A stretch of DNA of 59,110 nt from Carboxylicivirga caseinilyticus. GTDB taxonomy: Bacteria > Bacteroidota > Bacteroidia > Bacteroidales > Marinilabiliaceae. The position numbers and the translations under genes are program-made. The notes beneath the pieces were generated by a model. That model was not told the DNA's origin. It was given only the letters and a program-made list of their open reading frames with translations, and ran no database searches. The stretch is taken from positions 1 to 59,110 of the forward strand of contig JAFMVE010000036.1 of NCBI GenBank assembly GCA_025499705.1, in the 5' to 3' direction. Shown here in pieces: positions 1 through 16,957 of this stretch (positions are counted from its first letter, which is position 1; the number at the start of each line of letters is the position of its first letter).

Positions 1-9
1 TCAAAGGAC

Positions 10-47
10 TTTCAAATTACTCCGAATGTTTTCAAATTAATTTGAAA
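10..47. repeat. Direct repeat plus 18-bp perfect palindrome
   Basis: The 10-mer tttcaaatta occurs at 10-19 and 30-39, 20 bp apart, and the second copy is half of a perfect 18-bp palindrome at 30-47. A small hairpin (ggttt/aaacc, 56-70) follows. The arrangement resembles a dimeric repressor operator or an element-end repeat. The gene it might control lies outside the window, so the role is unknown. The rest of 1-216 shows no gene. Confidence 0.45.
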
Positions 48-216
48 GTTTTGCTGGTTTTCATCAAACCAACATGGACTTTACCGGATGCTTACAATGA
101 TTTTATATCGGTGTTAATTTGGCCGGTTATTTAACCCTTAAAAAGACTATAATACTGACATAAATTTAACAGGTGATATTAATTAGGACAGAATTGTTTA
201 AATTATTATTCTTTCA

Positions 217-1311
217 TTAAATAATAATACCCACACTTCTTCTAGCTCTTGTTATAGCTACATATAGTTTTGCCCTCGTTTCATTTTTTAGTTTGTGAGT
301 ATTATCCTTAATCCATTTACTCATATCAACCGTTGGGTAGATGAGTATTCGTTCGAAGGTCTTTCCTTTTGACTCACCAAAATTTAGTGCTTTGTATGAT
401 TGGTTAATTTTTGTTGTACTACTCCATCTTAATTGGACAGGGTTATGAGTCTTAAGATATTCGTCTACTTCTGTTTTTTCAATAAAGAACACCCCTTCAT
501 GATTAGATGGATTACTTCTACATTCATCACATTCACAAGCAGGTACTGTTGGAAATTCAGGATAGAGCTTCGAAGAGAAATTACATATTTCCTTGTTGTT
601 TCTATGCGAAACATTTAGACTGGTTTCATCAATATTGCCATTGATTAAAGTCTTACATTTTTCAAGTAGAAAATACTTTATACGGCCATCTTTGTAGTTC
701 CCATTCTTTGCCTCATTATGTGTGAGATATGTTACTTGGCGAGGATCTCCAACCATTGTTACTTTTGATTTTGATTTAAGAAGTAGCTTAATGACTTCTA
801 AATCATAACCAGCTAAATCCTGTACTTCGTCAATGTATATCTTATTAAAAACCTTTTCTAATCTGTCAATTACTGCACCATCCGATGCTTTATTACAATT
901 ATAAACAAACTTAGCTATTTTATCAGAATAGATTTTTTGTCCTATTGTAAAGTAATGTCTTTCAAAATCTTTAGTTTCACTATAATAGATAGGTCCTTGT
1001 GGCGTTCTACATTTAAAGCCAGATCTTTGATTAACTAATAACATGCCATTAATATCATAATCATAAAGGATTTCGTTTAATTCTCCTTGATATGGTTCAA
1101 CTCCATGCTGAAGTAGAAATGAAAACCAAGTTTGTACAACAATGTTATTTGGGATACATTTCTGTAGTTCAATTATTTTATTTTTTATCTCCACCTCATT
1201 TTGTTCTGTATATGTTGTAATGAGGATTTTTTCCTCACTGTTATTAATTGCGTCATTAACAATATGAGTTGTTTTTCCTGAACCTGCAGCTGCTATTATT
1301 AATTTATTCAT
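217..1311 (-). CDS. Compact UvrD/Rep-like superfamily 1 helicase, GajB-like
   Basis: This 364-residue protein is a minimal SF1 helicase/ATPase. Walker A (AAAGSGKTT) is at residues 7-15, Walker B (IDEVQDL) at about 160-166, motif III (VGDPRQ) at 187-192, a motif IV-like SHRN near 235 and motif VI (VAITRARR) near the C-terminus. It overlaps the upstream OLD-family gene by 8 bp, which suggests translational coupling. OLD nuclease followed by UvrD helicase is the gene order of the Gabija anti-phage system, in which GajB is thought to sense nucleic-acid processing and activate GajA. It is clearly shorter than the usual GajB of roughly 490-500 residues, yet it keeps the core motifs and an intact end, so it looks like a compact form and not a truncation. 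A CxCx2C cluster (C259, C261, C264) lies between the helicase motifs. It is the last gene of the defence operon. Confidence 0.82.
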   Translation of the reverse strand: MNKLIIAAAGSGKTTHIVNDAINNSEEKILITTYTEQNEVEIKNKIIELQKCIPNNIVVQTWFSFLLQHGVEPYQGELNEILYDYDINGMLLVNQRSGFKCRTPQGPIYYSETKDFERHYFTIGQKIYSDKIAKFVYNCNKASDGAVIDRLEKVFNKIYIDEVQDLAGYDLEVIKLLLKSKSKVTMVGDPRQVTYLTHNEAKNGNYKDGRIKYFLLEKCKTLINGNIDETSLNVSHRNNKEICNFSSKLYPEFPTVPACECDECRSNPSNHEGVFFIEKTEVDEYLKTHNPVQLRWSSTTKINQSYKALNFGESKGKTFERILIYPTVDMSKWIKDNTHKLKNETRAKLYVAITRARRSVGIII

Positions 1312-2926
1312 TTATCCAGTCAATTGCGTTAAGAATGTATTCAGGATATTGAAGTTTAACTTTAGATTCAAAAACTTTTAAAGCCCAATCTGTTTTATGA
1401 TGCTTCATGTAATTAGAGATTGGTATCATTCCGTTGTACCTACTAAAATCAATTCCGATAACATCACATAATGTAGGGAAGTTATCTCTGTTTGCATCAG
1501 CAAATTGAGGCTCAAGAGTGTTTAAACCTTCCCTTTTATCAGCAAATATTCCAATATGATTACAGTTCCAGTAATCTTCGTATTTTTTAACTATATATAA
1601 CTGGTAATTAGTATCATTATCTGTAATGACTGCTACTTTCTTATTCAGTTTTTTAGCTAATTCTAATAGCCTCTTAAAAGATAGGCCTGTTGAGATTACA
1701 TCGATACCATTTTCGATTGGTAATACTCCATTATAAATGTCCATATATGCCTTTTGAACTATGAGTTCGTCAGATGGTCCTTCAACCAAGATTGCCTTAT
1801 TACTTAGAATCAACCGAAGTGTATCAAAACCAGGAAGCTTTTTAAAATAATCTTCTGTAGAACTGTCTAAATCAGAAAATCTTGTGACTTGTTGTTCGTT
1901 TAATAAAATCAAATTATCAATTCCTAGTTTGTTAGCTACATAACTACTATGAGTTGTAATTATAATTTGCTTGTCATTTACGTTATTTACAAGGCTCTTT
2001 ATAGTTTGATTTAATTTTGAATGAGATAAATGGTTTTCAGGTTCTTCTATAAGTATACAGCCAGCATTTTTTGAACTGTTTTTTGCTAAAGCAAGATTAG
2101 TCTTGACAAGACATTGTTCTCCTTTTCCAATATGAATGAAAGGCACCTCGTTTACATATGTTGTTAGCCCATTTTCCCAAGCATCTTTAGTGGCGAGGTC
2201 TACAGATATTTCAACAGATTTTTCACTTATTTGAGCACTTTCAGTTATACGCTCATTGATTTTCAAGACCGCCTTGTCTGTCATGAACGATTCTTTTAGC
2301 TTTCTATAAGCCTGAGAAATATCAACTTTCTCTTTTTCTCCGAGATCACTTTTAATTATTCTCGAAATATAGATGTCAGAACCATTATTATACCTTGAAG
2401 AAGATGAGTCAATTAAAATAGATTTAAAAGGAATTGACTTTGAAGTAATTGTTTGTCTTGCAAATGACTGCCAGGTTATTTTGTAGTATTCAATTGGAAT
2501 GGTCAATACCTCATGCTTTATCAATTCCTGATATTCACCTTGATATTCATTATCAAACTCTATTTTTAAACTGACACCGGCAGAATTTTTTCTTTCGCTA
2601 TTATTGGTTCCTTCTAAATATGCATAATCACCACTTTCCAAGAAAACTTCAATCAATATTGATGGAGGAGATATTGGATTGGAAGATGATAAACTATCAA
2701 TATATCGTTTTTCTACTTGATTATTAAATAAATATTGAGATAGTTCACCTTTAATAAATTTTCCATTAATTATACCTGACAAGGCTAAATTAATAGCCTC
2801 TAATATGGTTGATTTACCCGTTTCATTATTACCAACAATAATGTTTAATTCAGGATTTAATACTAAAGAGAACCTACCATCAAATAACTTAAAGTTCTCA
2901 ATATTAACTTTACTGATGTTGCTCAT
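1304..2926 (-). CDS. OLD-family ATP-dependent endonuclease (ABC ATPase + TOPRIM), GajA-like
   Basis: The 540-residue protein has an N-terminal SMC/RecF-like ATPase and a C-terminal TOPRIM nuclease. Walker A (GNNETGKST) is at 32-40, Walker B (LIEEPENHL) at 292-300 and the switch histidine (THSS) at 325-328. The TOPRIM domain starts with VEGPSDE (381-387) and has the acidic DND at 436-438. OLD-family enzymes nick or cut DNA, and in Gabija the ATPase domain holds the nuclease in check until nucleotide pools fall. The next gene is a UvrD-like helicase overlapping by 8 bp, which fits GajA-GajB order. It starts 33 bp after the type III res gene, so the pair is probably co-transcribed with the restriction system. 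A stand-alone class 2 OLD nuclease is possible but less likely given the partner. Confidence 0.85.
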   Translation of the reverse strand: MSNISKVNIENFKLFDGRFSLVLNPELNIIVGNNETGKSTILEAINLALSGIINGKFIKGELSQYLFNNQVEKRYIDSLSSSNPISPPSILIEVFLESGDYAYLEGTNNSERKNSAGVSLKIEFDNEYQGEYQELIKHEVLTIPIEYYKITWQSFARQTITSKSIPFKSILIDSSSSRYNNGSDIYISRIIKSDLGEKEKVDISQAYRKLKESFMTDKAVLKINERITESAQISEKSVEISVDLATKDAWENGLTTYVNEVPFIHIGKGEQCLVKTNLALAKNSSKNAGCILIEEPENHLSHSKLNQTIKSLVNNVNDKQIIITTHSSYVANKLGIDNLILLNEQQVTRFSDLDSSTEDYFKKLPGFDTLRLILSNKAILVEGPSDELIVQKAYMDIYNGVLPIENGIDVISTGLSFKRLLELAKKLNKKVAVITDNDTNYQLYIVKKYEDYWNCNHIGIFADKREGLNTLEPQFADANRDNFPTLCDVIGIDFSRYNGMIPISNYMKHHKTDWALKVFESKVKLQYPEYILNAIDWINE

Positions 2927-2959
2927 TTGTCAGGTTAGTTTGGTTTAACTTATTTTTAT

Positions 2960-5641
2960 TTACAACATTCTAACTACATCAATTATACTTTGTGCTGTAT
3001 AAGTATCTGGCACGTCCTTCGTTTCAAATACCATGAAGTATTTGTAATTGTCACCGGATTTTTCAGCCCATTTCTTACCCAACAAGTTTTTGGCTCTGCT
3101 GTCATCGTTATCTAAATGGTCACCTTTGGTTTCAATAAGAATTAGGTTGCCGTTTTGTGTATAGATAATGAAATCAGGGTAGTGGTCGTTTTTAAAACCG
3201 TTCAGGGCAAATCCTTTTCCTTTTTCAAGGTTTCGGTGCCAGAATAACACATTCTCCAAAGAGGCAATATCCATAATTACCTTTTGCTCAAAATTATTAA
3301 CCGATGCTTCTCGCTCGTATAATGATTTATTGATTGGGCTACACAGGTTAATATGTGTTAATTCCGGAGGAAATTTAAAACTAGGCTTAACCATTATATT
3401 ATTGGTGTCAAGCAATAACTGAAATTGCTCTTTGGCATAGTCGTTTTCCAATTCCTTAACTTTATCCTTTATTTTTCGGATATACAAGAACTCATTATTG
3501 ATTATATCTCTAATCTGGTCGTTGTTCAAATCCTCAAAAACACGAGAAACATACTTAGTAATATCTTCATGTGAGATGGGGGTCATGTCGCCCAGCTTTC
3601 GCACAATAAGGGAAGTAATCTCTTTTATCTGTGTTTCTTTCGGTTTGGCCAGGATGGTATCTACCAAGATTGATTTTGCCCTGGTTGAAAGTTTCTGCAT
3701 GGTAGCAGTATGCTTTGTTTCATTGTAATCAACCTGAAAAACTTCAGTAGCCGTATCATCAAAATTAATCTCGGTACTTTTTGAAGCAAGCTTAAATCCT
3801 TTTAAAAGACTATTCCGATTTAATAGTTGCTCTTTTTGTGTAAGCTCTTCAAATATAATTGTATCGTGAAGCTCATCGTTTGGAACTTTGCGATAGAATT
3901 GTGGTATCTCAATATCGGTTACTACATCAACAAAAGGTTCCTCAATCTTATATTTTTTCGGTTCTTTACCCATTTCTCGTAATAAATAGTCGGTATTATC
4001 TTCGGTATATGATTCGGCTTTTTGCTCAAAGGATTTTCCTTCACTTTCTCCTTTTTGAGTGATTTGCTTTACAATATCGTTGGTGTTACCAATTTGGTCA
4101 GGCGTTAATTCTGTTTCGGGATTAAAGTCAATCTCATCAACCTCAATTTCGTCAACAGCTCTCGGTGTCTCGTCATCGGTCTGTTTTGGTTCTGATTCTC
4201 CGAATAATTCGTTTTGCAACACTTCATTGTCCGATAATTCTGCTTCCGGTTGTTCTTCGGCATAATAATCATCCTTACTAAAGCCGGATTCTTGCAACGC
4301 TTTAACAATATTATCCAAAGTGTCTTGGAACTTTGAGCTTGCCGATAGTACGAAAGACAGGTTAAGAAGTGGTGTTTGATGCTTGGTGACATAAGGTTGA
4401 CGTAAAACCCTGCCTAATATCTGCTCCACATCTACAGCTGATGATTTATCGGCTAATGATGCCAAAATATAGGCATTGGGGCAATCCCAACCTTCTTTTA
4501 AAGCATTAACGGTAATGATGTATCTGACTTCACAGTCTTTTGCCATTAAGTCAATACCTTTTAACTCATCTAAACCACTAACCTTAATCTTAATTTGTTC
4601 TTCGGGTATTTTCAGTTTGGTGAGTTGCTCTTTAATATGAATATAGGTGGTATTGTCTTTGCCTTTAATGTTCGATTGTGCCTGAAAAAGTATGATAGGT
4701 CTGATGTATTTACCTGTTACTTTTTCTTCCTCTAAAGCAAGCAATTCCAATTGCCTTTGGAGGTGTAAAGCACTTGTGATTACTTCTTCTTTTTTATGAT
4801 GATTGTAAACAATAACAGGCAGCTTTACCATGTGTTCTTTTTTAAGAGCCATAGCATTTACAAAGCTTATGATATTGCTGTTCTCTTTTGGCGTAGCTGT
4901 TAAATCCAATACAAACGAAGGATTCAGGTTGTTTAGCATTTCAACACTTAAATCACTTTCGGCATTATGGCTTTCATCAACCACTACCACCGGATTTAAG
5001 GAACGGATTACATTTATAAGTGCTGTTTCATCCGTATCTTCAATAACCAGGTCATTATCTACAAAGCCACGGAATTGCTCTAAAGCTCCGTTTTGCTCAT
5101 AAACTTTACGGTCGTCCTTCTTTCTTGAATTAATACGGATACTACTAAAGTTGAAAACGAAAATATTTAGTTGTTCCTGAACCGAAGTAGGGTTGAATCC
5201 AGCACCTTGAAGCAATTGCTCTTTTTCCAATACCTCTACACGGTTTCCAAATAAAGCGTTTAGCTTTTCTCTGTATGGATGAGTAGGGTTCGATAAATGA
5301 CCAACGGTTTGTTGTAACAGGTTCGACCAGGGAACTAACCAAACAACCGCTTTAGGCTTTGAGGCATCGAACGATTTAAAAATAGAAGACAATGCGTTAC
5401 AGGCAATAAAAGTTTTCCCTCCGGCAGTAGGCACTTTTACAGCTATGTGAGTAGCTCCCGGAATATTGTTTTTGTATGGTTTCATTCCTGAAAACGAACC
5501 ATCGAGCTTAACCTGGTATTTACCAACTTTATCTTCCCAAAACTGATTAAAAGCTTTAGCTGAATCCTGATAAGTATTAACATATTCAAGAAACTTATCG
5601 AGGTCGTTTATTACTTGCTGTTGATATGGTTTTAATTCCAC
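2960..5641 (-). CDS. res: Type III restriction enzyme, Res subunit
   Basis: This 893-residue protein is the ATP-dependent translocase and nuclease subunit of a type III restriction-modification system. The SF2 helicase core shows Walker A (PTAGGKT, 71-77), the DESH box (222-225), the TAT motif near 248 and a GRVLRQ-type motif VI near 403. A strongly acidic linker lies at about 455-515. The C-terminus carries a PD-(D/E)xK nuclease with D823, E837 and K839 (PDF...ETK). Type III Res works with Mod and cuts DNA downstream of a pair of unmethylated sites. Here mod is four positions upstream in the operon, with an ATPase and a DUF4276 gene in between, whereas mod and res normally lie next to each other. 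The spacer to the upstream gene is 20 bp. Confidence 0.93.
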   Translation of the reverse strand: MELKPYQQQVINDLDKFLEYVNTYQDSAKAFNQFWEDKVGKYQVKLDGSFSGMKPYKNNIPGATHIAVKVPTAGGKTFIACNALSSIFKSFDASKPKAVVWLVPWSNLLQQTVGHLSNPTHPYREKLNALFGNRVEVLEKEQLLQGAGFNPTSVQEQLNIFVFNFSSIRINSRKKDDRKVYEQNGALEQFRGFVDNDLVIEDTDETALINVIRSLNPVVVVDESHNAESDLSVEMLNNLNPSFVLDLTATPKENSNIISFVNAMALKKEHMVKLPVIVYNHHKKEEVITSALHLQRQLELLALEEEKVTGKYIRPIILFQAQSNIKGKDNTTYIHIKEQLTKLKIPEEQIKIKVSGLDELKGIDLMAKDCEVRYIITVNALKEGWDCPNAYILASLADKSSAVDVEQILGRVLRQPYVTKHQTPLLNLSFVLSASSKFQDTLDNIVKALQESGFSKDDYYAEEQPEAELSDNEVLQNELFGESEPKQTDDETPRAVDEIEVDEIDFNPETELTPDQIGNTNDIVKQITQKGESEGKSFEQKAESYTEDNTDYLLREMGKEPKKYKIEEPFVDVVTDIEIPQFYRKVPNDELHDTIIFEELTQKEQLLNRNSLLKGFKLASKSTEINFDDTATEVFQVDYNETKHTATMQKLSTRAKSILVDTILAKPKETQIKEITSLIVRKLGDMTPISHEDITKYVSRVFEDLNNDQIRDIINNEFLYIRKIKDKVKELENDYAKEQFQLLLDTNNIMVKPSFKFPPELTHINLCSPINKSLYEREASVNNFEQKVIMDIASLENVLFWHRNLEKGKGFALNGFKNDHYPDFIIYTQNGNLILIETKGDHLDNDDSRAKNLLGKKWAEKSGDNYKYFMVFETKDVPDTYTAQSIIDVVRML

Positions 5642-5661
5642 TTTTAAAAATCGTTAAATCG

Positions 5662-6321
5662 TTATTCTTCTAATGCCAATAATTTTTCAATCCATTTATT
5701 AAAGCGAGGGCATTTATCCCTAATGGTTCTCAAACCAATTTCTTCTGCTATCATTGAGCCATATAAAGGTTTTTTATAGCCTTTTATAATCCGTTTTAGC
5801 CTTTTTGATGGTGCTGTTGTAGCTCCATCATTTATATTTTCAGGATTGTCTGTATTGGTTGTTTCCACTAAATAATTGTAGTCGTTGAACTCATTTTCTT
5901 CAAAGCACTCATCAAAAGCTTCAATTTTGCTAAAAAGCAAACCTTCAAACTCATGTAGTTGAATATAAGGAATGAACCTGTTTCTGAGGTTTTCTTCAAT
6001 ATCTTCCAACATACCTTGTTCTAAATTGCTCATGCGTTCAGCCCTGTCAACTTTGGTATGTGCTTCATCCCATTTCGGAAAACCATGTTCTTTTTTCAAT
6101 CCATAATAATCAATGAGTGTGGTGACAATTAAATTAGGGTCGTGCTTTAAATAATTACTAATCTCTTTTTTTAATGCAGCCCATGATACTATACCGCCAC
6201 CTGATTTGGTAATTATTGCATTATGAGGGTATATGTTTTTCTCAATTAAAAGCGGACTTAATACATCGTTGCAAAAGGCTTGCTCTGTTTGCCCTTCACC
6301 TATTATCGTTATTCTTGTCAT
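5662..6321 (-). CDS. DUF4276 protein, TOPRIM-like partner of the adjacent ATPase
   Basis: The 219-residue protein matches the DUF4276 pattern. It begins with a beta strand ending in GEGQTE (8-13), has TLIDYYGL around 68-75, the motif YIQLHEFEGLLF in the middle, then NPENIND, APSKRL and a terminal CPRFNKWI. The early Glu and the central Asp (D71) fit a TOPRIM-like metal site. DUF4276 proteins usually come paired with an AAA ATPase, in a layout reminiscent of the ATPase/TOPRIM pairs of PARIS and of the R-linked ORFs found within type I restriction loci. It overlaps the ATPase gene by 4 bp, so the pair is translationally coupled. The likely role is a nuclease or effector held by the ATPase; this is inferred and its target is unknown. 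Confidence 0.82.
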   Translation of the reverse strand: MTRITIIGEGQTEQAFCNDVLSPLLIEKNIYPHNAIITKSGGGIVSWAALKKEISNYLKHDPNLIVTTLIDYYGLKKEHGFPKWDEAHTKVDRAERMSNLEQGMLEDIEENLRNRFIPYIQLHEFEGLLFSKIEAFDECFEENEFNDYNYLVETTNTDNPENINDGATTAPSKRLKRIIKGYKKPLYGSMIAEEIGLRTIRDKCPRFNKWIEKLLALEE

Positions 6322-7421
6322 TTGGCAAAAGGTTGAGCTGAGTTAATAATGTTACGTTCCCAAAGTTCCCCTAATGTATGGTCATTAAGCCACAGTTGTA
6401 GGTCGGTTGAATTTAAGCGATTAAAAACCGATTGGTTTTCTTCAACACTTCTGTCAACGGTAACTATATCCTCCGGATGAAAGCAGTTAACCAAATTCAC
6501 GGATTGGGTAGATAAAATCAATTGAGTTTTTTCTGACGCTGCATCAATTAAAGCAGCCAGCTTTTGAATAGCTTGTGGATGCAAACCTAATTCCGGCTCA
6601 TCAATCACAATTACTTTTGGCGGTTCAGGTTGCATAAGCACAGTAGCTAAAGCAATAAAACGTAATGTTCCATCCGAAAACTGGTAAGCATTAAAATTTG
6701 AATTTGGGTCGCCCTTTTCTACCCATCTTAATTCAATTTCATCTTTATTCAACTTTTTGGGTTGAAGTATAAACTTATCAATATACGGTGCTATTGATTT
6801 TATAGTTTTTTCTATGCGCTTGTATAATTTCGGATGTTCTTCCTGTAAATAATACAAAAAGGCAGGAAGGTTTCTTCCATCTGTTTTTAAGTAATCATTA
6901 TCGTTTATATCGCATTCACGGCGAAGCATTGAGGTTGCCGAAGTATCGTGAAAGTGATATATCTGAATGTTTGATAAGTATCTTTTCAGATAATTATTTC
7001 TATAAGAACCATCACGAGTAACTGATGTTTCTTCGACATTTGATTCTGTAAAATAGTTTTGATAATCGTTATCACGGTTAACATTGTAACCGGAACCTTC
7101 TTCTTTTATAAACAAGCCTCCCTCTTTGGTTTGAGCCAGGTTAAACCAATAGGCATTGTTATTTTGTGCATCTTCGGTAAATATCATTTTACCGTACATG
7201 GTTTCAGTCATCTTTCTACCAAAATGGAGGATGTTGTCTGCTTTTTCTTCAATTACATATCGTTGTAGATGCTGATTGAAAATAGCATGAACCATTTTAA
7301 AGAAAGACACAAAGTTACTTTTACCTGCACCATTGCTACCTATAAAAACATTGATGGGTTTTAGTTCCAACTGCATGTTTTTTACAGATTTAAAGCCTTG
7401 TATTTCTATATATTCTATCAT
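6318..7421 (-). CDS. AAA-family (AAA_21/RecF-like) ATPase paired with DUF4276
   Basis: This 367-residue ABC/SMC-like ATPase has Walker A GSNGAGKS (28-35), an ABC-type signature SDGT (249-252) and Walker B with catalytic glutamate IDEPELGLH (273-281), followed by the STQS switch region. It has no TOPRIM domain of its own; that function is supplied by the downstream DUF4276 gene, which it overlaps by 4 bp. Such split ATPase-TOPRIM pairs serve as abortive-infection or sensor-effector modules. Here the pair sits between mod (10 bp upstream) and res (20 bp after DUF4276), so all four genes are probably on one message. The specific trigger cannot be read from sequence. Confidence 0.85.
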   Translation of the reverse strand: MIEYIEIQGFKSVKNMQLELKPINVFIGSNGAGKSNFVSFFKMVHAIFNQHLQRYVIEEKADNILHFGRKMTETMYGKMIFTEDAQNNNAYWFNLAQTKEGGLFIKEEGSGYNVNRDNDYQNYFTESNVEETSVTRDGSYRNNYLKRYLSNIQIYHFHDTSATSMLRRECDINDNDYLKTDGRNLPAFLYYLQEEHPKLYKRIEKTIKSIAPYIDKFILQPKKLNKDEIELRWVEKGDPNSNFNAYQFSDGTLRFIALATVLMQPEPPKVIVIDEPELGLHPQAIQKLAALIDAASEKTQLILSTQSVNLVNCFHPEDIVTVDRSVEENQSVFNRLNSTDLQLWLNDHTLGELWERNIINSAQPFAK

Positions 7422-7431
7422 AGTAATCAGG

Positions 7432-9111
7432 TTAAAATCGTGTTATATCCCTTGGGATTTTCTTAAATGTTATATGGTATTTCTGCATTAAACTATTGTC
7501 TAAAACACAATTGTCTGCATAAATAATATATTGCTCTGCCTTAGTTTTTAGTTTACGCAAAAAGCTATCATCTAAAGTTGTTAGCTCATCTTTGTAATAA
7601 TAAAAGTAGAAAGCCGATGAATTAGCCACTCCTAATAAGTGTTCCTCCTTTTCGTTCACTTTCTCGTAGGGTTTACGAGTTTCGGAAAACCATACATACT
7701 CACGGATTTTATCTAAACCAACTTCTTCGTTTAGCATTTCATTATCTAGGAATAAAGGTTTGCCTAATTCGTAGAAGTCGAAGCTGTTTTCTATTCCATC
7801 AACTTTTTTATTTCCTTTTCCATACCCCGTTGTAACATTCTTAATCCTTTGTGCAGTTAAAGAATCAGCATAATTTTCCATTTCTATTAAAATGTACTTT
7901 CTATTACAGCTATCTTGCTTGTTCAAGTTTAGTATGGCGTGGGCAGAGGTTCCTGAACCAGCAAATGAATCAAGTATAATATCGTTATCCTTTGTAACAA
8001 AGGATAATATCTCTTCTAAAAGTTCTGTTGTTTTTGGATTTTTAAAAGGTGTTTTAGCTTGAGTAAAAATATCCTTCAATGTATAAGCACCTTTTCTACC
8101 ATCTAATTCAATGACACTTGGAAGTTTTGCCCTATATTCATGTGCATATAGCTTTAATTCTATAATTTTTGATTCATCGTCACCAAAAAGGATTTTTTTG
8201 GAATCAAGCAAATTAGTCATTGTATCTTCTGGGAAACGATACCCCATTAAAGGTTCTTTACAAGGTTTTTTTGTGATAGGATGAATTATATCATATCTGT
8301 AACCTTCCTTTCCCGGGTTATGAACACTTTGACTACCAGTATAAATTCCTCCATAATCAATGTACTTATATCTATCAAAAGGCCATAAATATGCTTTGTT
8401 TTTTGAAAACCATTTCGTGTATTCCTTCTGAAGAGTCTCAATATCATTTGGAAATTTATTGATGAAATCTTGTCCTACCTCCAATAACTTATCTTTAACA
8501 TCTAAATTTGGAGACTTCCACTCAGATTCAATCCATTTCTTACTTTTTGAATAACAAAGTAGGTATTCATGTTCATCTGCAATCTGTGTTGGATTATTAT
8601 CTGTGGCATTTTTCCAAATAATATTTCCTACAAAATTTGAAGCTCCAAATATTTCATCCAATACTAACTTTAAGTTATACAACTCATTATTATCTATTGA
8701 TATAAATATGATTCCATCTTTATCTAGTAGCTTGTAAAGCAATTTAATCCTTGGAAACATCATGCATAACCACTTATCATGACGAGATAAGTCTTCTCCT
8801 TCCTTTCCAACTACTTTATTTAGCCATTCCTTTATTTTTGGATGGTCAACTTTATCACTATATTTCCATTCATCCTTACCTGTATTATATGGAGGGTCAA
8901 TGTAAATACACTTAACCTTTCCCTCATATTCAGGCAAAAGAGCTTTTAGTGCTTCAAGATTATCTCCATGAATTATTTTATTACCGCTATTGGTTTCTTT
9001 TTTGGTTTGTTTTCCATTGTCGAAACCATAGGAGTGTTCTAATATTCTGTAAGGAACATCCATGTGGTGGTTTATCACCTTATCTTTTCCTATCCAATTT
9101 AATGTTGGCAT
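7432..9111 (-). CDS. mod: Type III DNA N6-adenine methyltransferase, Mod subunit
   Basis: The 559-residue protein is the modification and specificity subunit of a type III restriction-modification system. The catalytic motif IV IDPPYNTG (71-78) precedes the AdoMet-binding motif I FAGSGT (383-388). This order defines the beta class, which methylates adenine at N6. The roughly 300 residues between the two motifs should hold the target recognition domain. Mod is needed both for host protection and for target recognition by Res. It lies 13 bp after a small HTH regulator and 10 bp before the ATPase. No simple-sequence repeat typical of phase-variable mod genes is seen in the coding region. The recognition sequence cannot be predicted from this read. 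Confidence 0.94.
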   Translation of the reverse strand: MPTLNWIGKDKVINHHMDVPYRILEHSYGFDNGKQTKKETNSGNKIIHGDNLEALKALLPEYEGKVKCIYIDPPYNTGKDEWKYSDKVDHPKIKEWLNKVVGKEGEDLSRHDKWLCMMFPRIKLLYKLLDKDGIIFISIDNNELYNLKLVLDEIFGASNFVGNIIWKNATDNNPTQIADEHEYLLCYSKSKKWIESEWKSPNLDVKDKLLEVGQDFINKFPNDIETLQKEYTKWFSKNKAYLWPFDRYKYIDYGGIYTGSQSVHNPGKEGYRYDIIHPITKKPCKEPLMGYRFPEDTMTNLLDSKKILFGDDESKIIELKLYAHEYRAKLPSVIELDGRKGAYTLKDIFTQAKTPFKNPKTTELLEEILSFVTKDNDIILDSFAGSGTSAHAILNLNKQDSCNRKYILIEMENYADSLTAQRIKNVTTGYGKGNKKVDGIENSFDFYELGKPLFLDNEMLNEEVGLDKIREYVWFSETRKPYEKVNEKEEHLLGVANSSAFYFYYYKDELTTLDDSFLRKLKTKAEQYIIYADNCVLDNSLMQKYHITFKKIPRDITRF

Positions 9112-9124
9112 TGTTTATTTCCTG

Positions 9125-9343
9125 TTATTTATCCTGTTTGGTTGATACTATCAGTTCCCTGGCATCAACATTCAATTTCTCTGCAATTTCAATCATGGTT
9201 TCAATACCCGGCTGTGTTTCATTGGTACACCAACGCGATACAGTAGTAAGGCTTTTGCCCAATTGTTCAGCCAACCATTTGTTTGTTCTATTCTGCTCTG
9301 CAAGAACAATTTTCAACCTATTTATTTGCTTTCTTTGTGTCAT
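9125..9343 (-). CDS. Small Xre-family HTH regulator of the restriction locus
   Basis: A protein of about 72 residues made almost entirely of a Cro/C1-type helix-turn-helix (WLAEQLGKSLTTVSRWCTNE, then a PGIETMIEIAEKL helix). The longest reading frame would start with TTG at 9352; the ATG at 9343 is preferred because the family begins there. It ends 13 bp before mod, so it probably leads the operon. By analogy with restriction-modification controller proteins it may time expression of mod and res. That is inference, because no operator was clearly identified in the upstream 400 bp. Confidence 0.83.
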   Translation of the reverse strand: MTQRKQINRLKIVLAEQNRTNKWLAEQLGKSLTTVSRWCTNETQPGIETMIEIAEKLNVDARELIVSTKQDK

Positions 9344-9352
9344 AATACGCAA

Positions 9353-9754
9353 ATTATGTGCATTTTTTTAACCAAGAAGCTAATTTATAAAACTTATATG
9401 AAATTAAGGAGTTTTCTTTTAGATAATTGTTTAGGTGTTTAGCTCAATTGAAAATCCAGTTGATTGGTAACAAGCTTAGTTTTATTTTGAGTAGATTGAG
9501 ATAATTAAGTATGGTGAAGTTCAAAAAATATAATATACACTCAGATAGTGAGTTATATAATGTTGCTCCAATAAACAAGCTGAATTGATATTGAAGACTT
9601 CGACTAAGTATCGCTAGTAGAAAAAATAGATAGAGATTTGGTTGTAAGATTTGATTGTTTTTAAAGGACTAATCCCCTGACCAACTTTATTTATCAATCA
9701 TTCCTAATTAGTAAGTGGAGTTAGGAGTAAAACTTAGATGGCAAGACAACATTA
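9353..9754. other. 402-bp non-coding stretch upstream of the defence operon
   Basis: No intact gene is visible. The part nearest 9353 must contain the promoter of the HTH-mod operon, but no clean TAnnTTTG box was found on the minus strand. The segment at about 9440-9600 is a decayed copy of the end of the neighbouring metallophosphoesterase gene and is listed separately. Nothing is recognised in 9610-9754. Confidence 0.5.
9440..9600 (-). pseudogene. Decayed copy of the 3' part of the metallophosphoesterase gene
   Basis: Two anchors match the gene at 10194-10958 with conserved spacing. The 22-mer at 9460-9481 differs by one base from 10260-10281. A second anchor, ttgctc followed 21 bp later by attgatattg, is at 9563-9593 and again at 10365-10395. 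Anchor-to-anchor distance is 103 bp here and 105 bp in the gene. Sequence between the anchors is only loosely similar and has no open frame, so this looks like an old partial duplication or the remnant of a related gene. Confidence 0.55.
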
Positions 9755-10105
9755 CTATTCGTCGATTTCCACAGGATAAAAACTAACAATTATACCTTCT
9801 CCGGACAACAAACACTCAAGATAATCCATCGTACCACCCATTAAAAGCTTTCCAATTTTGACTTCACAGAAGAAAATAAATTTCCCAGTTTCATCTTCAT
9901 TCTTGTATTCTTCAAATGATAACATTTCATAATCTTCTTTTGATGGCTTCCTGTTTAATAATTGCATTAAAAGCTGTTCCAAAACCTGTTCCTCAGCAGT
10001 ATCAAAAGCATTCATAATACTCTGTTTTGTTACATTACTCGATTTTAAGAATTCTTTTAATCGAACTTCTTCTTGGATAATAGTTAGTTTTTTGCAAGCT
10101 GTCAT
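9755..10105 (-). CDS. Hypothetical protein, 116 residues
   Basis: I do not recognise this protein. It has no signal peptide or membrane segment. The N-terminal half is helical and rich in Lys, Glu and Leu (EEQVLEQLLMQLLNRKP); the C-terminal half looks like beta strands (FIFFCEVKIGKLLMGG, IIVSFYPVEI). It stands alone between the defence-operon promoter region and a metallophosphoesterase on the same strand, with 88 bp separating it from the latter. It could be a small accessory protein of the island, but nothing in the sequence proves a defence role. Confidence 0.6.
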   Translation of the reverse strand: MTACKKLTIIQEEVRLKEFLKSSNVTKQSIMNAFDTAEEQVLEQLLMQLLNRKPSKEDYEMLSFEEYKNEDETGKFIFFCEVKIGKLLMGGTMDYLECLLSGEGIIVSFYPVEIDE

Positions 10106-10193
10106 TTAAATAAAGTATTAGTTCACAATCTTATCTGCGAAAGTATATGTTCGTCTTTTTGGCTAAGTTAGAAACTTATTATTCTTTTAACTT

Positions 10194-10958
10194 TTATTGA
10201 ATATCAAACCAAGCAGCATGCCTGTAACTATGATGTTCACCTAAATCCACATATCCTAATTGATTTGTAACAAGCTTAGTTCCATTAATATTGGTTTCTG
10301 GCATATTGGCGTGGTGATGAACATAGATCCAGTAATCAATTTTCCAATCATGTATTAATGAATATTGCTCAGAAACAAATGCAGGATTGATATTGGAATT
10401 ACGATAACACTCTGGATTACATATTTGTGTTGGAATATGATGTGTGGCAACTACCTTCTTTTTCGCTGTTGATTCTGGAATTGATATCTTTAAAAATTCC
10501 AGACTCTTTTCATGATGTTGATTGAATATCTTATAATCAAGCCTTTTGCCTTTATACTTGATTTGATGAAAATCACCAACTCCATGTTCTACAAATAAGG
10601 ATTTCGACTCAGGTATATGCGACCAAAGTACAGTAAAGAAGAAATCAACATCATCAACTGTTATTACCTTGCTATTTACAAGATATACATTCTCCCTTAT
10701 GCCTTCGTAAAATGGTTTGTCTAATATTCTTAAATCCTTTCCTGTATAAAACTCATGGTTACCCGGTATATAGTACACCTTCTTAAAATGATCGGATACA
10801 TAATCGAAGAACCAATGTGTAAAGTGTTTCTTCCCCCAATAAGTAATATCCCCGGCCAGAATCAATATATCACCAACCGGTTTTATGGGATTCTTATGCA
10901 GAAATAAACTGTTTTGAGCAAATTCTAAATGTAAATCAGAACAATATTGCACTTTCAT
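10194..10958 (-). CDS. Calcineurin-like metallophosphoesterase
   Basis: The 254-residue protein shows the ordered metal-binding motifs of the calcineurin-like superfamily: DLHLEF (9-14), GDITYW (near 37-42), GNHEFY (near 66-71), THHIPTQ in the C-terminal half and a final HHH motif (YVHHHANM). Members hydrolyse phosphomono- or diesters using two metal ions. The cytosolic substrate cannot be assigned. It has no signal peptide and the family length is normal. A partial, decayed copy of its 3' end lies 0.8 kb downstream, so this gene has been duplicated or recombined locally. It is transcribed away from the structured RNA and zinc-ribbon gene. Confidence 0.88.
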   Translation of the reverse strand: MKVQYCSDLHLEFAQNSLFLHKNPIKPVGDILILAGDITYWGKKHFTHWFFDYVSDHFKKVYYIPGNHEFYTGKDLRILDKPFYEGIRENVYLVNSKVITVDDVDFFFTVLWSHIPESKSLFVEHGVGDFHQIKYKGKRLDYKIFNQHHEKSLEFLKISIPESTAKKKVVATHHIPTQICNPECYRNSNINPAFVSEQYSLIHDWKIDYWIYVHHHANMPETNINGTKLVTNQLGYVDLGEHHSYRHAAWFDIQ

Positions 10959-11073
10959 AAGGGAAGAAATAAATCGTTTAAAAACTAATGCCCTAAAATA
11001 ATCATTTGCTCATTAGCTTTTATTAATTTTGACTGGACATATTAGAAAACATTATTGCGTTACTGACGCTTCT

Positions 11074-11191
11074 CCTCAGAAAAACCGCCAATTTAGAAGA
11101 GTACGAGAAGTCAGGAAGTGAACGCATCCTATATGGGTGTGTTCCTTTCGCTTGTTTAGTGTACTCTGGTGCTTGGCGGTACCTTCTGAGG
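11074..11191 (+). ncRNA. Long rod-shaped structured RNA candidate (6S-like architecture)
   Basis: The segment folds into one long interrupted hairpin. P1 pairs 11074-11081 with 11184-11191, P2 pairs 11085-11091 with 11173-11179, and P3 pairs 11098-11104 with 11161-11167; these are 7-8 bp of perfect Watson-Crick pairing each. Next comes a large unpaired bubble (about 11105-11113 and 11150-11160). An apical stem then pairs 11114-11129 with 11135-11149 (with G-U pairs and one bulge) around the loop tatat. A closing rod, a central bubble and an apical stem is the layout of 6S RNA, but no sequence consensus was recognised, so the class is open. The strand is assigned from a U-rich terminator-like element just downstream. 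It ends 59 bp before the zinc-ribbon gene and could also be a leader element for it. Confidence 0.55.
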
Positions 11192-11202
11192 CTAAATATA
11201 GC

Positions 11203-11224
11203 AAAGGGCATGCCCACCTTTTTA
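11203..11224 (+). terminator. Possible terminator after the structured RNA
   Basis: A five-pair stem AAAGG/CCTTT encloses the loop gcatgccca and runs into a T-tract (11219-11223). The stem is short, so termination strength is uncertain. If active it would give an RNA of about 150-180 nt ending near 11224, separate from the downstream gene. Confidence 0.4.
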
Positions 11225-11250
11225 TAGGGCTGTCACAAAGGAACAGGCCT

Positions 11251-12372
11251 ATGGAAGATTTCAAAATTATTCAACCAAGTATTTCTGACTACTTTGATGG
11301 ATTAAGCAAGGATACACTTGATGAGATTCTAACTCTTTATGATGGTCAAGAGATCAAGATATTGGATCTCATTAAAAAGTTTGAGCTCAAACCAATCAGT
11401 GTAAATACATTTCGAACTCATCTTTCACCAATCATTTGCCACGATTTTATCTGTCCTGATTGCCTGACCGTTTCATGGAAGGATCATTTGGCACGTAATA
11501 AGTATTCAATTCCTTATTGTCCGGAATGTAAAAATTATCTGTATTCTGATTTTGATCCGGTAAAAAATGAGAAAGAAAAATTATGGCGATCTAATGCTTG
11601 GAATTCATTTGGATTCTATTTTGATGAGAATACTACCGAACTAGATCCATATGAAAATTACACGATCACAAGACAAACTTATTCATCTTTGGATTATGAA
11701 AGTAAGGTCTTCTTAGGAAGCCTTGTTGCTAATAGCTTATCTGAGGACTTATCAACTATTCAGGGATGGCGTTTAAACAATGTAAAGTTTTACCCACTTC
11801 CTGAAATGACCAGAGAAGTAATGTCAAGACTTGGTTTTACAGATCGTACCCCGGAATTAATGGATATTGAAATAGCAACAGATGTTGCACAGGAACTTTT
11901 ATTTCCACAAAAACGGCTTGAAGGAACTATCCAGGAACAGTTTGAATTATGGAAGAAAATAGCAGTTGGGGAATGCAAAGAATTGTTGATTAATGAGATG
12001 GAGGAATGTGGATTCCATCTTAGACAGGGTGAAATAGTCAATCAGATAATTAGTAAACTATTGGAAGACTATTCAGTTGGCCAGGTTTATAATATTATAT
12101 GGAGAACAGTTAGAAATGCGACTCAGTTTTATGCAAAAACTGATAATAGGGTTTATGCAGCTAATTCTGTTATTCACAATTGCCAGATGTTAGGAGACAA
12201 ATTTAAAGCAGAAGGCAAAATACTGGATAATTATACACGTCGCTATCATTCCTTTCAATCAGAGATTGCCAGGTATTATTTTGATTCTGTCTTAAAGATT
12301 GGAAATGTGGGAATTGAAAAACATCCATCACCGAAATGGCTATTAGGTTTTGAGAATTATGATATTTCATGA
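11251..12372 (+). CDS. Zinc-ribbon protein of unknown function, mobile-element type
   Basis: This protein of about 373 residues has an N-terminal region with two CPxC knuckles (CPDC and CPEC) about 32 residues apart, likely forming a zinc ribbon. A helical C-terminal domain follows, with the stretch YSVGQVYNIIWRTVRNA and then YAANSVIHNCQ. From memory, the C-terminal stretch resembles proteins in Firmicutes mobile elements that carry a similar GQIY...W...HAANSI pattern; no function is known to me. The open frame extends to 11137, but the ATG at 11251 is preferred: it has AAAGGA 7 bp upstream, and earlier starts would run through the RNA hairpin. It follows the structured RNA directly and is followed by a strong hairpin. 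Confidence 0.72.
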   Translation: MEDFKIIQPSISDYFDGLSKDTLDEILTLYDGQEIKILDLIKKFELKPISVNTFRTHLSPIICHDFICPDCLTVSWKDHLARNKYSIPYCPECKNYLYSDFDPVKNEKEKLWRSNAWNSFGFYFDENTTELDPYENYTITRQTYSSLDYESKVFLGSLVANSLSEDLSTIQGWRLNNVKFYPLPEMTREVMSRLGFTDRTPELMDIEIATDVAQELLFPQKRLEGTIQEQFELWKKIAVGECKELLINEMEECGFHLRQGEIVNQIISKLLEDYSVGQVYNIIWRTVRNATQFYAKTDNRVYAANSVIHNCQMLGDKFKAEGKILDNYTRRYHSFQSEIARYYFDSVLKIGNVGIEKHPSPKWLLGFENYDIS

Positions 12373-12402
12373 AGGCCAAGTCTTCAACTTTTTGGTTTTT
12401 TC

Positions 12403-12420
12403 GGGAGGCAACGGCCTCCC
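12403..12420 (+). terminator. Strong GC hairpin after the zinc-ribbon gene
   Basis: A perfect 7-bp stem GGGAGGC/GCCTCCC with loop AACG lies 31 bp after the stop codon. The downstream T-tract is weak (ttcattctt), while a T-run precedes it. It probably terminates or stabilises the upstream message. Confidence 0.6.
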
Positions 12421-12447
12421 TTCATTCTTAATCTAATCCAAATACCA

Positions 12448-12921
12448 ATGATTATAACAATTGAAAAAAATGACAATGCCAACAATTATTTACCGCTACC
12501 GGATGAAATAATTAAGAGATATGATCTTAAGGTTGGTGATAAGTTAGCAATGCTTCAAAGGAAACGGGGCGTTTTAGTTGTTCCTCTTCCGCATAAAATG
12601 GTTAAGAATCGCAACGGAGAAGATGTTAACCAGATATATGAAGTAGTTCAAAGAAATTTTAGAAGCGTTGAAGTAGAATATGTATCATGCTATTATTTTG
12701 ACTATTATGTCGATGAAAATACCGGAGTGATTGATTATACAAGATTCGATAAATTTTATACTTCGGAGCAATCTGATTATGATACAAAATCATTTAAAGA
12801 AGCTTATCTGGATGCTTTGGACGGTGAAACTCCTCAAGAAAAAATGATAGATAACATTGATCCGACTACCCTTCATGATGAAATTGATTTTGGAGGTCCG
12901 GTTGGAAATGAAGAATGGTAA
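12448..12921 (+). CDS. AbrB/SpoVT-like N-terminal domain protein
   Basis: The 157-residue protein begins with a fold resembling the swapped-hairpin AbrB DNA-binding domain: LPLPDEIIKRYDLKVGDKL, then LVVPLP, at about residues 15-50. The remaining 100 residues are acidic and aromatic-rich (YVSCYYFDYYVDENTGVIDY) and unrecognised. AbrB-type domains serve as transition regulators or as antitoxins. It overlaps or abuts the next gene, an Xre/DUF2384-like antitoxin, so the two are likely co-transcribed. The AbrB assignment rests on the short N-terminal pattern only. Confidence 0.6.
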   Translation: MIITIEKNDNANNYLPLPDEIIKRYDLKVGDKLAMLQRKRGVLVVPLPHKMVKNRNGEDVNQIYEVVQRNFRSVEVEYVSCYYFDYYVDENTGVIDYTRFDKFYTSEQSDYDTKSFKEAYLDALDGETPQEKMIDNIDPTTLHDEIDFGGPVGNEEW

Positions 12922-12926
12922 TAGTC

Positions 12927-13265
12927 ATGAAAGATTTTAAATCAATATCAGAAGAAGCATTCTCTCTAGGAATATGCAGAAAAGAATATGCTAATATTTT
13001 ACAAATTAGCACTTCTTCATTGTATCGATATCTAAAAGAACCGCAAAAGGTTTCGGCCAAGTGCAAAGATCGATCAGTAGTGATTTGTAATTTGATAAAC
13101 AAAGGGAAATCAACCTTTGGAGATAAATCCAAGTTTTCACATTGGCTATTTTGTAAGAATATTGCGTTAGGAGGTCCTAAGCCTATCGAGATGCTTTGTA
13201 CTGTTGAAGGAACAAAGCAAGTAGATTTTTGCTTGAATAGAATTGAGTGGGGGATATTTGCATGA
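12927..13265 (+). CDS. Xre/MbcA/ParS (DUF2384)-type antitoxin-like protein
   Basis: The C-terminal half contains WLFCKNIALGG, then KPIEML, then EGTKQV and RIEWGIFA. This follows the toxin-binding domain of MbcA/ParS/Xre antitoxins (consensus WL..pN.aLgG..P.ell.t..G...V...L.rie.G). The N-terminus looks like an HTH (ANILQISTSSLYRYLK). Such antitoxins normally neutralise a RES-domain toxin that degrades NAD. The gene downstream is not a recognisable RES toxin, so this one is orphaned or has another partner. An earlier ATG at 12915 would overlap the preceding gene; 12927 leaves a 5-bp gap and is preferred. Confidence 0.68.
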   Translation: MKDFKSISEEAFSLGICRKEYANILQISTSSLYRYLKEPQKVSAKCKDRSVVICNLINKGKSTFGDKSKFSHWLFCKNIALGGPKPIEMLCTVEGTKQVDFCLNRIEWGIFA

Positions 13266-13286
13266 TTATTAAATAAATTCTAAGAA

Positions 13287-13733
13287 ATGAAACTATTTGA
13301 ATTAATTAAACAATTTCAGTGGTCGGAACTGGAAGTTCGCCTTCCAGAACTTTATCCTGATCAGGAAAAGGATTTAGAGGGATTCAAAAAGGCATTCGCC
13401 AGATTACAATCATTAGCTCCTCTGGAATCCATTATGACAATTTTGGTAACTCCTATCAAGGAAGATTGTGATGAAGTGGAGTATGCTCATGTAAATGGAT
13501 GTAAAACAAATCCTGAAGATGAAGAAGAAAATAAAATGACTTACTCATTGATGATTACTCAATGGCCTGAATGGCTGGGGATGGAGGTTTCAGAAGAAGC
13601 ATTCAAGTATTATGGAGAGCTAGATACATTGGTACATATTCTTTGGGAAATGACCTTTGTCGGTTATAAAGAGGAGAGTGCAGCTGAATTTGATGAAGAG
13701 CTAAGAAGGCAGGATTTGGATAATAAAGAATAG
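13287..13733 (+). CDS. Acidic 148-residue protein (DUF6557-like)
   Basis: The protein starts MKLFELIKQFQWSELEVRL, continues with a helical region, and has MTYSLMITQWPEWLGM followed by HILWEMTFVGYKEE. The pattern resembles a family seen in Bacteroidota mobile regions, probably DUF6557; I am not certain of the number. No catalytic motif, signal peptide or membrane segment is evident. It lies 21 bp after the Xre/DUF2384-type gene and 15 bp before a broken small gene, so it belongs to the same transcription unit. It is the position where a toxin would be expected, but it has no RES features. Confidence 0.62.
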   Translation: MKLFELIKQFQWSELEVRLPELYPDQEKDLEGFKKAFARLQSLAPLESIMTILVTPIKEDCDEVEYAHVNGCKTNPEDEEENKMTYSLMITQWPEWLGMEVSEEAFKYYGELDTLVHILWEMTFVGYKEESAAEFDEELRRQDLDNKE

Positions 13734-13748
13734 AAAAACCAAATTAAT

Positions 13749-14003
13749 ATGCGAAAACTAAAAGACAGACTTCATGCTCAAAAACGTAAAAAGCTTTGAG
13801 ATTTATTTGATTGGAAATATGCTTCGACAAATGCTCTTAGTAAAAACCATTCATTAAGATGTAGATGTAAAATGTGTGCTATTGAAAGATACAATAAATG
13901 GTATGCCAATAAACGCAATCGTATTGATGCTAGAGAAGCACTTGCAAATCCAGATGATTTTAGGATTTATGAGGTAAATAGGAGGATAAGAATGGCTCTG
14001 TGA
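13749..14003 (+). pseudogene. Small CxCx2C protein gene interrupted by an in-frame TGA
   Basis: Reading from ATG at 13749 gives 16 codons rich in Lys and Arg, a TGA at 13797-13799, and then 67 more sense codons in the same frame to a second TGA at 14001. The downstream part contains RCRCKMCAIERYNKWY, a CxCx2C cluster plausible for zinc binding. The open frame after the stop, its coding-like composition and its place at the end of the operon suggest one small gene broken by a nonsense change. A functional downstream start is possible but would remove the first third. Confidence 0.5.
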
Positions 14004-14315
14004 CACAATGTTTTTCTGGGAGTATAATCAAAATTTGACCTTTCAGCCATTTTATATCATTCATAATAAGTACTAAGGTTGTTAAATATTGTATAACATG
14101 TTTTTAGTATAACCTACTTAAACAATTTCTTCTTTGTGATAATGCGTGAGTTCTAGAAGCTCTATAATCTATTGGATTTAACAGCAATAAAATAGATTGA
14201 CATCAGATAATAATAGTATGATATTTGCACATCGCTATTGTCGAGCCTGACTTTGATATGCTATATGTGATCAAATTCTATTGATTTCGAAATGTTTTAA
14301 ATGAATTTCTGCACA
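14004..14315. other. 312-bp AT-rich intergenic region with a possible promoter
   Basis: No gene is seen. A TTTG-containing sequence at about 14221-14226 (tatttg) with ttgac some 20 bp upstream could form a degenerate Bacteroidota promoter for the secreted-protein gene that follows. Nothing else is recognised. Confidence 0.35.
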
Positions 14316-15507: not shown

Positions 15508-15923
15508 GTCATCATAACAAACTATAAATGGCTTATTTCGGTTTGGAATGCCATTTTCGATTGCAAAGCATCTGTCACTATGATTTGTAATGGTTTCAAA
15601 ACCTATTTGAGAGAATTTACCAGCAACGTCGATTGTTTTACGATCTTATAGGAACTAATTTTACGTGCTATCTCTTGAAATATTTGCATCATATAACTTT
15701 TACCAACACCAATATTCCCAGTAATTAATAAACCTTTGCTTAAGGAGTAAGTGGGGTGATAATTTTCGAAATCATAGTAATGAAAAAGATAAGCATAAAC
15801 CATTCTATAAACTTTTATATCAATTTCATTTAGATGGAAGCTAGCAACTTTCTTTTTTCCTGTCGCTTCAATGATTTTTATGCAATCATTCGATTTAGAG
15901 TTCAACATAGAATTCATCATCAT
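15508..15923 (-). pseudogene. Truncated, frameshifted DnaC/IstB-like ATPase of the integrative element
   Basis: The N-terminal frame (15923 to 15603) encodes GLLITGNIGVGKSYMMQIFQEIA, a Walker A typical of the DnaC-like ATPases in Bacteroidota integrative elements. It stops early at 15603. In another frame the sequence continues as GKFSQIGFETI and then PFIVCYDDL, which matches the family's region before the Walker B CFDDLG motif. Similarity ends at the DDL at about 15508. The gene thus carries a frameshift near 15620 and is cut off at the junction with the plus-strand secreted-protein gene. The family is normally more than 200 residues. Helicase loading would not be expected from this copy. 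Confidence 0.62.
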
Positions 15924-16383: not shown

Positions 16384-16483
16384 AGTTTGGTTGATTATAT
16401 GGATGTATATCCATATTTTTGTGAAATAATTGATTAAAAAAGATTGATTAGCGTTGTGTGGAGGCAACGCTTTTTTTGTTGCG

Positions 16484-16774: not shown

Positions 16775-16800
16775 GTTATTTAAATTAATGATTATACATG

Positions 16801-16818
16801 GATACCAGCGCTAGTATC
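16801..16818. promoter_or_regulatory. 18-bp near-palindrome upstream of the excisionase-like gene
   Basis: The sequence gataccagcgctagtatc pairs with its own reverse complement at all but one symmetrical pair and has AGCGCT at its centre. It lies 27 bp upstream of the start at 16774. It is a plausible operator for a dimeric regulator. No second copy was noticed. Confidence 0.45.
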
Positions 16819-16957
16819 ATTTATTAATGAACATTGCAAACCAACGAAAACATATCAAATCAAAGAAGTTCATATCGCAAGTATGACAATGAAAAGTTTA
16901 GTAAGGTTTAGATTGTCAAGTATATAGTGTTTTGATATTAGTGGAAAGTTATTTGTA

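Follow-up and report, generated by a model that had tools for sequence, protein, structure and literature searches.

An ATPase/DUF4276 gene pair between mod and res of a Carboxylicivirga caseinilyticus type III restriction-modification operon: evidence consistent with a slot for exchangeable accessory genes

The stretch of DNA considered here (the window, 59,110 nucleotides of Carboxylicivirga caseinilyticus) carries near its left end a run of defence genes in which an ATPase gene and a DUF4276 gene lie between mod and res of a type III restriction-modification (RM) system. An earlier reading of this DNA without database searches (the sequence-only reading) had listed seven genes there, read in one direction with spacings of 13, 10, -4, 20, 33 and -8 bp; all seven open reading frames (ORFs) were found on the minus strand in the order given, their names agree with Pfam and PADLOC assignments, and the same spacings were obtained from the ORF coordinates. 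The first gene encodes a small helix-turn-helix (HTH) regulator of Cro/CI type (9125..9343; HTH_3, E=3.6e-11), for which PADLOC returned nothing telling, and is followed by mod, encoding an adenine/cytosine N-methyltransferase (7432..9111; N6_N4_Mtase, E=2.8e-33; PADLOC MTase_III, E=2.4e-175). Next come an OLD-type ABC ATPase (6318..7421; Pfam AAA_21; PADLOC HEC-01A, E=3.6e-138) and a DUF4276 protein that may be TOPRIM-like (5662..6321; PF14103, E=1.6e-58; PADLOC HEC-01B, E=6.3e-79), and then res, encoding an ATP-dependent helicase with a PD-ExK nuclease (2960..5641; ResIII, E=7.1e-16; REase_III, E=4.1e-73; DESH and PD..ExK motifs). The run ends with a GajA-like OLD nuclease (1304..2926; PADLOC GajA, E=4.1e-207; Pfam AAA_15 and an OLD-like TOPRIM) and a GajB-like UvrD helicase of a short subfamily (217..1311; GajB, E=2e-140, positions 2-363 of a 369-position profile); the window starts at base 1 of contig C75, so that the contig edge lies just past UvrD. 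The expected motifs are present in mod, res, ATPase, DUF4276, OLD and UvrD, including the P-loop PTAGGKT read in the translation of res, and none of these genes therefore looks broken.

The run thus holds the genes of three kinds of system. An N6/N4 methylase (mod) and a helicase/PD-ExK protein (res) in one operon make a type III RM system; between them lie HEC-01A and HEC-01B, the ATPase and DUF4276 genes of the PADLOC candidate HEC-01, overlapping by 4 bp; and GajA, with ATPase and TOPRIM in one protein, followed by the UvrD-type helicase GajB, makes a Gabija system.

How common an interrupted mod-res junction is was surveyed with res searches of 393 genomes of the order (34 matching at E<=1e-30) and 395 of the class (27 matching), some genomes being in both sets. 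Flanks were read for 43 res loci besides that of the window (L032 and L108-L149, including two contigs each of genomes G751 and G770), all with about 39% identity or more; weaker matches (33-37%) and several fragments were left out. A mod gene was identified in 41 of these loci, the exceptions being L119, where the contig begins inside a RhuM gene, and L141, and in 27 of the 41 the gap to res is 60 nt or less, overlaps included, which bears out the sequence-only reading that the two genes are normally adjacent. Cargo stands in front of res in 13 of the 43 loci: the HEC-01 pair in the mod-res gap of five (L032, L108, L109, L118 and L121), RhuM in four (L115, L119, L137 and L144), a YhcG/DUF1016 nuclease in the gap of two (L117 and L133), Fic in that of one (L136) and, in the gap of another backbone (L126, 950-3054), a divergent HEC-01-like pair whose ATPase is 27% identical over 223 residues. 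The 405-bp gap of L145 was not counted as cargo because mod is split there, and L132 has a gap of 211 bp. At L145 the mod upstream of res consists of two ORFs, of 424 and 107 residues, and is probably a broken copy.

When named genomes were scanned with an alignment of the ATPase, the best 80 of 478 relatives being kept, two more loci with the same arrangement came to light, L150 in Carboxylicivirga sp. A043 and L153 in Roseivirga seohaensis. The order mod-ATPase-DUF4276-res, which might have proved a peculiarity of this one genome, consequently occurs in at least eight loci of seven genomes, the named ones belonging to Marinilabiliaceae and Roseivirgaceae. By res identity to the window, L032, L108, L109 and L150 are close (86-99%) and L118, L121 and L153 distant (each 55% or less).

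The distribution of the pair over the backbones points to repeated arrival. A res tree of 45 rows was built by a quick method without bootstrap (L124 was dropped for length, L139 is unlabelled, and L132 and L127 have long branches), and the HEC-01 label changes four times on it, all four changes being forced by starred branches: the window group of five, L118, L121 and L153. On an ATPase tree of 102 rows, likewise built by a quick method (L108 was omitted, its ATPase being identical to that of L032, and 2 of the 97 other loci were dropped for length), the seven embedded rows that were used all belong to a single ten-member clade with a support of 100*. No window-like mod or res was seen beside the other three members of that clade (L151, L152 and L154). 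One ATPase clade set against four res branches implies that related pairs came to sit in the same gap of different backbones. The gap is also found both empty and filled in close relatives: in L113 it measures 3 bp, in L118 it measures 1795 bp and holds the pair, and the two loci are 82.9% identical in mod and 81.9% in res. RhuM or Fic stands at the same point in relatives whose res genes are 78-97% identical to one another, and the junctions of this slot are located after the stop of mod (..RDITRF) and before the start of res (MELKPYQQ). The free-standing pair of L152 (3684-6338) lies among housekeeping genes, with a Fic-like ORF, recognized by eye, 2 bp before it.

Parts of the operon appear to have been exchanged even between nearly identical copies. 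Between the window and L150, amino-acid identity reaches 98.7% in res, 94.4% in the HTH protein and 91.0% in the ATPase but falls to 62.2% in mod and 62.4% in DUF4276. Nucleotide identity between them is lowest in two places, the middle of mod and a segment that runs from about 6630, within the ATPase gene, to the end of DUF4276; across this second segment (5662..6630, the C-terminal part of the ATPase plus DUF4276) it is 56-80%, as against 82-97% in res. The middle of mod (8000..8699), which we take to be the target-recognition region, is strongly divergent among relatives in general, with a gapped nucleotide identity of 33-59% compared with 75-95% in most of the remaining operon. Three-way site patterns among the window, L150 and L032 were scored as the share of informative sites that group the window with L150, with Fisher values that treat sites as independent and are therefore descriptive. 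This share is 0.73 for res (N-terminal half) and 0.70 for the ATPase (N-terminal part), and drops to 0.40 in the C-terminal part of the ATPase (p=3.5e-8 vs res), 0.34 in DUF4276 (p=1.6e-20) and 0.31 in the middle of mod (p=5.3e-24). When L032 and L109 are compared, it is the N-terminal part of the ATPase that departs from res (p=1.6e-15), and the grouping of the two is no weaker in DUF4276 (0.84) than in res (0.75). Judged by these patterns, recombination has made a mosaic of the operon, and this mosaic has more than one border. Rapid mutation was considered as a source of the DUF4276 difference between the window and L150 and judged unlikely, res being 98.7% identical; this idea is further weakened by the shift of site patterns along the operon.

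Where the unit ends can be read from a second copy in the same genome. DUF4276 occurs twice in C. caseinilyticus, on contig C75 (the window) and on contig C51 (L032), and the second copy has the order HTH-mod-ATPase-DUF4276-res, with no match to OLD or UvrD at that locus. At the nucleotide level the two copies are homologous from about 9406, roughly 60 bp before the start of the HTH gene, to 2960, where res stops, with an interruption in the central part of mod. With 145 contigs and an estimated contamination of 3.25% in the assembly, one copy could be foreign. The five-gene order with nearly equal spacings recurs in L032, L108, L109 and L150. The sequence-only reading had joined all seven genes into one composite, with Gabija as a possible backup layer, and had asked whether the OLD-UvrD pair follows res elsewhere. 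The common strand, the res-GajA gap of 33 bp and the lack of any minus-strand terminator-like site in that gap would suit such a composite. However, the homology of the unit stops with res, and none of the 32 other loci that extend 2 kb or more past res has an OLD or UvrD homologue (E<=1e-4) there. Conversely, of 198 genomes of the order searched with the OLD protein, six match at E<=1e-60, the window genome included, and the other five each have an OLD-UvrD pair; no window-like mod or res was found near these five pairs in the stretches examined, one of which is only 3.3 kb long. We therefore rejected the seven-gene unit, which is very improbable on this evidence; the Gabija pair is best read, from these sequence comparisons, as an independent neighbour outside a unit of five genes. 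The nearest relative found for this Gabija pair (L236, 3127-10390; OLD 58% and UvrD 53% identical) is followed by a RhuM-like ORF, recognized by eye, and then by a TRCF (Mfd-like) gene.

The five genes may share one promoter. In an alignment of six upstream regions, a non-coding block just upstream of the HTH gene (9344..9406) is common to the window, L032, L108, L109 and L150 and is lacking in L118, and the HTH protein itself is 89-94% identical in L032, L108, L109 and L150. The block is thus the probable promoter/operator of the five-gene unit and the HTH protein its probable autorepressor. No minus-strand terminator-like site was found in the intergenic gaps, which allows, and does not show, a single transcript. 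A scan for sigma-70 promoters gave 51 sites against a shuffled mean of 46.3, a result to be read with the reservation that this consensus may not suit the host phylum. Upstream of the HTH gene only short pairs of repeats were seen, and an Rfam scan of window positions 1-20000 gave zero matches.

The two proteins of the pair look like a sensor and an effector. The profile of the ATPase matches chains of OLD, GajA, PtuA, SMC and AriA in the Protein Data Bank (PDB), and its structural model (predicted local distance difference test, pLDDT, 92) has as best PDB match the OLD nuclease 6p74 (E=1.1e-15), with further matches to retron PtuA and to Rad50/SMC heads. By analogy with such proteins the ATPase (HEC-01A) is probably the sensor or regulator. 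Among four close copies its residues 100-139 are hypervariable, with mean differences of 0.39 and 0.60 in the two blocks of this region and of 0.03-0.24 elsewhere. In DUF4276, twelve residues are invariant among 57 sequences (E9, G10, E13, F16, G43, D71, E124, F125, E126, E161, I163 and F207). In its model (pLDDT 95), E9 follows the strand formed by residues 2-8 and D71 closes the strand formed by residues 64-71. In TOPRIM folds strand 1 is followed by the catalytic glutamate and strand 3 by acidic residues, and the placement of E9 and D71 would suit a TOPRIM-like nuclease. DUF4276 is tentatively regarded as TOPRIM-like, and as HEC-01B it is probably the effector nuclease. RloB (PF13707), a family of the R-linked genes, has no match in the window genome at E<=0.001. 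No DUF4276 was found in the phage records searched, and 15 plasmid records hold a relative of the ATPase (E<=1e-40), all with less than 60% identity.

The pair also occurs outside this operon type. In a phylum sample, DUF4276 matches occur in 81 of 395 genomes, 74 of them over the family cut-off, and 99 ATPase loci were laid out (19 from this sample and 80 from named genomes), the partner gene being absent or cut off in some. A modification-system gene adjoins the ATPase in at least 11 of the 99, a lower bound because the annotated neighbours are clusters of two or more plus a few others. These comprise the window-type mod/res (L150 and L153), another N6/N4 methylase with a ResIII helicase (L204 and L229), a SNF2 helicase followed by the pair and by the mod-res of another type III kind (L173, 1211-5859, and L209), a methylase/PglZ of BREX (bacteriophage exclusion; L039, L044 and L185) and type I HsdR (L051 and L221), with L229, L209, L185 and L221 assigned by clustering with annotated members. 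Less certain are L038, with a mod-like fragment upstream, and L184, with a SNF2 helicase downstream.

The explanation that we favour, with a probability of about 0.58, is that the locus is a five-gene type III RM operon in which the space between mod and res is a slot that takes exchangeable accessory effectors and is occupied here by a PARIS-like (phage anti-restriction-induced system) guard pair of ATPase and DUF4276. The slot is suggested by the presence of the pair on four res branches, by related backbones that carry different genes, or none, in this place, and by the exchange of parts of the pair between near-identical operons. Under this explanation, Mod and Res would act as methylase and nuclease in the way usual for type III systems and the HTH protein would repress the common promoter. 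The ATPase would keep the DUF4276 protein inactive until it senses a phage anti-restriction protein or an inhibited or altered Mod/Res complex; the activated DUF4276 protein would then cut nucleic acid, either tRNA or DNA, and abort the infection, as AriA/AriB of PARIS and PrrC do. It is plausible, by analogy with these systems, that the pair responds when the restriction enzyme fails or is attacked, and it would probably act as a backup when phages disable that enzyme.

Several observations weigh against this explanation or parts of it. Four of the eight pair-bearing loci are close kin of the window. The HTH gene (0.31), the 5' part of mod (0.42) and its 3' part (0.40, p=3.5e-12) also depart from res in the site patterns, which means that exchange is not confined to the middle of mod and the pair. 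As regards the effector, the DUF4276 model found no fold match in the PDB with Foldseek at E<=0.001, and its sequence no PDB match at E<=1; comparison with a RloB profile gave a probability of 78%, but via the motif EGxTE by which the eleven RloB rows had been preselected, and comparison with an OLD TOPRIM profile gave 1.3% in the same register, as against 0.1% and 0.4% for two control alignments. Finally, most of the 99 ATPase loci have no identified modification-system neighbour and 3 of the 10 members of the pair's own ATPase clade are free-standing, from which it follows that the pair need not depend on Mod/Res.

This last point also speaks for a rival in which the pair is an autonomous defence module without a functional link to Mod or Res and the mod-res gap a transcribed landing place, the gain being limited to co-expression and co-transfer; the use of the same gap by the unrelated RhuM, YhcG and Fic fits it too. 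We nevertheless hold it to be rather unlikely, since 7 of the 10 clade members lie in a mod-res gap, on four res branches, and since the PADLOC name and published surveys, as far as their accessible text goes (PMC12839542), link ATPase/TOPRIM pairs with modification systems. In a second rival, the pair is an addiction module of the toxin-antitoxin kind, with the ATPase as antitoxin of DUF4276, and stabilizes the restriction operon on its island; this would account for the 4-bp overlap of the genes, the effector-like second gene, the presence of an integrase gene (18133-19260) in this part of the window and the different left flank of the copy on contig C51. However, an ATPase of the OLD/Rad50/SMC type is a sensor in known relatives rather than a simple antitoxin, and the 27 loci with a closed mod-res gap do without the pair, which makes this rival improbable. 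A stronger form of the slot explanation is possible, if doubtful: a dedicated recombining slot, with mod recognition regions and cargo (sensor ATPase plus effector, RhuM, Fic or YhcG nuclease) swapped among backbones, and with a pair that monitors its own Mod/Res, residues 100-139 of the ATPase reading the trigger and the ATPase C-terminus matched to its own effector allele. A phage that blocked restriction would then set off abortive infection.

Should the slot explanation be true, the embedding of accessory defence genes would extend to type III restriction operons, and these loci would offer a natural experiment, in which one backbone family carries different effectors or none, with L113 and L118 as empty and filled sites and two alleles within one genome. 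Whether embedded effectors guard the restriction enzyme would become directly testable, and the operon would provide a context in which to learn what DUF4276 does.

As for the wider surroundings, a tyrosine integrase gene lies beside MnmE (18133-20879), and the part of the window from about 1 to 19.3 kb, both defence systems included, may be an island inserted beside mnmE. The same stretch holds two overlapping genes (12448-13265), the second with an Xre/MbcA/ParS antitoxin C-terminal domain, that possibly form a toxin-antitoxin pair. At L032 (2-6385), the genes before the second copy look by eye like those for an integrase, a small DNA-binding protein and a primase-helicase, and that copy may ride on another mobile element.

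Among known systems, both genes of the pair match the profiles of HEC-01 most strongly, by a wide margin; HEC-01 is a PADLOC-DB candidate, and HEC stands for Hma-embedded candidate. In both settings the host system has a methylase and a helicase, the host here being a type III RM system. The window ATPase scores 458 bits to HEC-01A as against 96 to AriA. With PARIS the pair shares a two-gene layout and an ATPase of the OLD-ABC kind to which AriA belongs; the partner, tentatively TOPRIM-like as well, is DUF4276, without an AriB match, and the AriB family is presumably DUF4435, for which the window genome has no match. We therefore rejected PARIS proper, and the sensing of Ocr and cutting of tRNA, which are features of PARIS, would apply to the window pair by analogy only. 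The OLD and UvrD genes match Gabija, with a GajB of the short subfamily. The available text of the PADLOC paper (PMC8565338) describes Hma and does not mention HEC-01, and that of a paper on 'guilt by embedding' and Hma-embedded candidates (PMC12988326) names only HECs and HEC-06. Accessory genes embedded in type I RM, BREX and Hma systems are already known. For effectors between mod and res of type III systems, and likewise for DUF4276, we found no printed report in a search that left preprints, most subscription papers and supplements outside, which is weak evidence of absence.

The closest parallels are cases in which an accessory module sits inside a restriction or related operon, and the sequence-only reading was apt in recalling accessory genes of type I loci, for which print precedents exist. 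According to the accessible part of one source (PMC12707154), Ocr is recognized in PARIS by AriA, which sets AriB free to cleave tRNA(Lys), and PrrC sits in the type IC locus ecoprrI; PrrC and R-linked genes are likewise accessory effectors embedded in a restriction operon, although the host is of type IC rather than type III and the protein families differ. In a seven-ORF type I RM island, as far as the source is accessible (PMC12255303), RptR is the first gene and DarTG2 lies between hsdS and hsdR. This arrangement resembles the present one in having a small regulator first and a two-gene module inside a restriction operon, and differs in that the system is of type I and the module is a toxin-antitoxin. 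TOPRIM-linked OLD-ABC ATPases occur in BREX, as the accessible text of a survey reports (PMC12839542), and represent the same kind of pair in another host, as in L039, L044 and L185. Lastly, type III systems with a helicase-like ATPase gene of the superfamily 2 type upstream of mod have been described (PMC8259958, in the part available); they share with the window a third gene added to type III RM, but the helicase lies 5' of mod whereas the pair lies between mod and res, and it is L173 and L209, with their order SNF2 helicase, pair, mod and res, that recall them.

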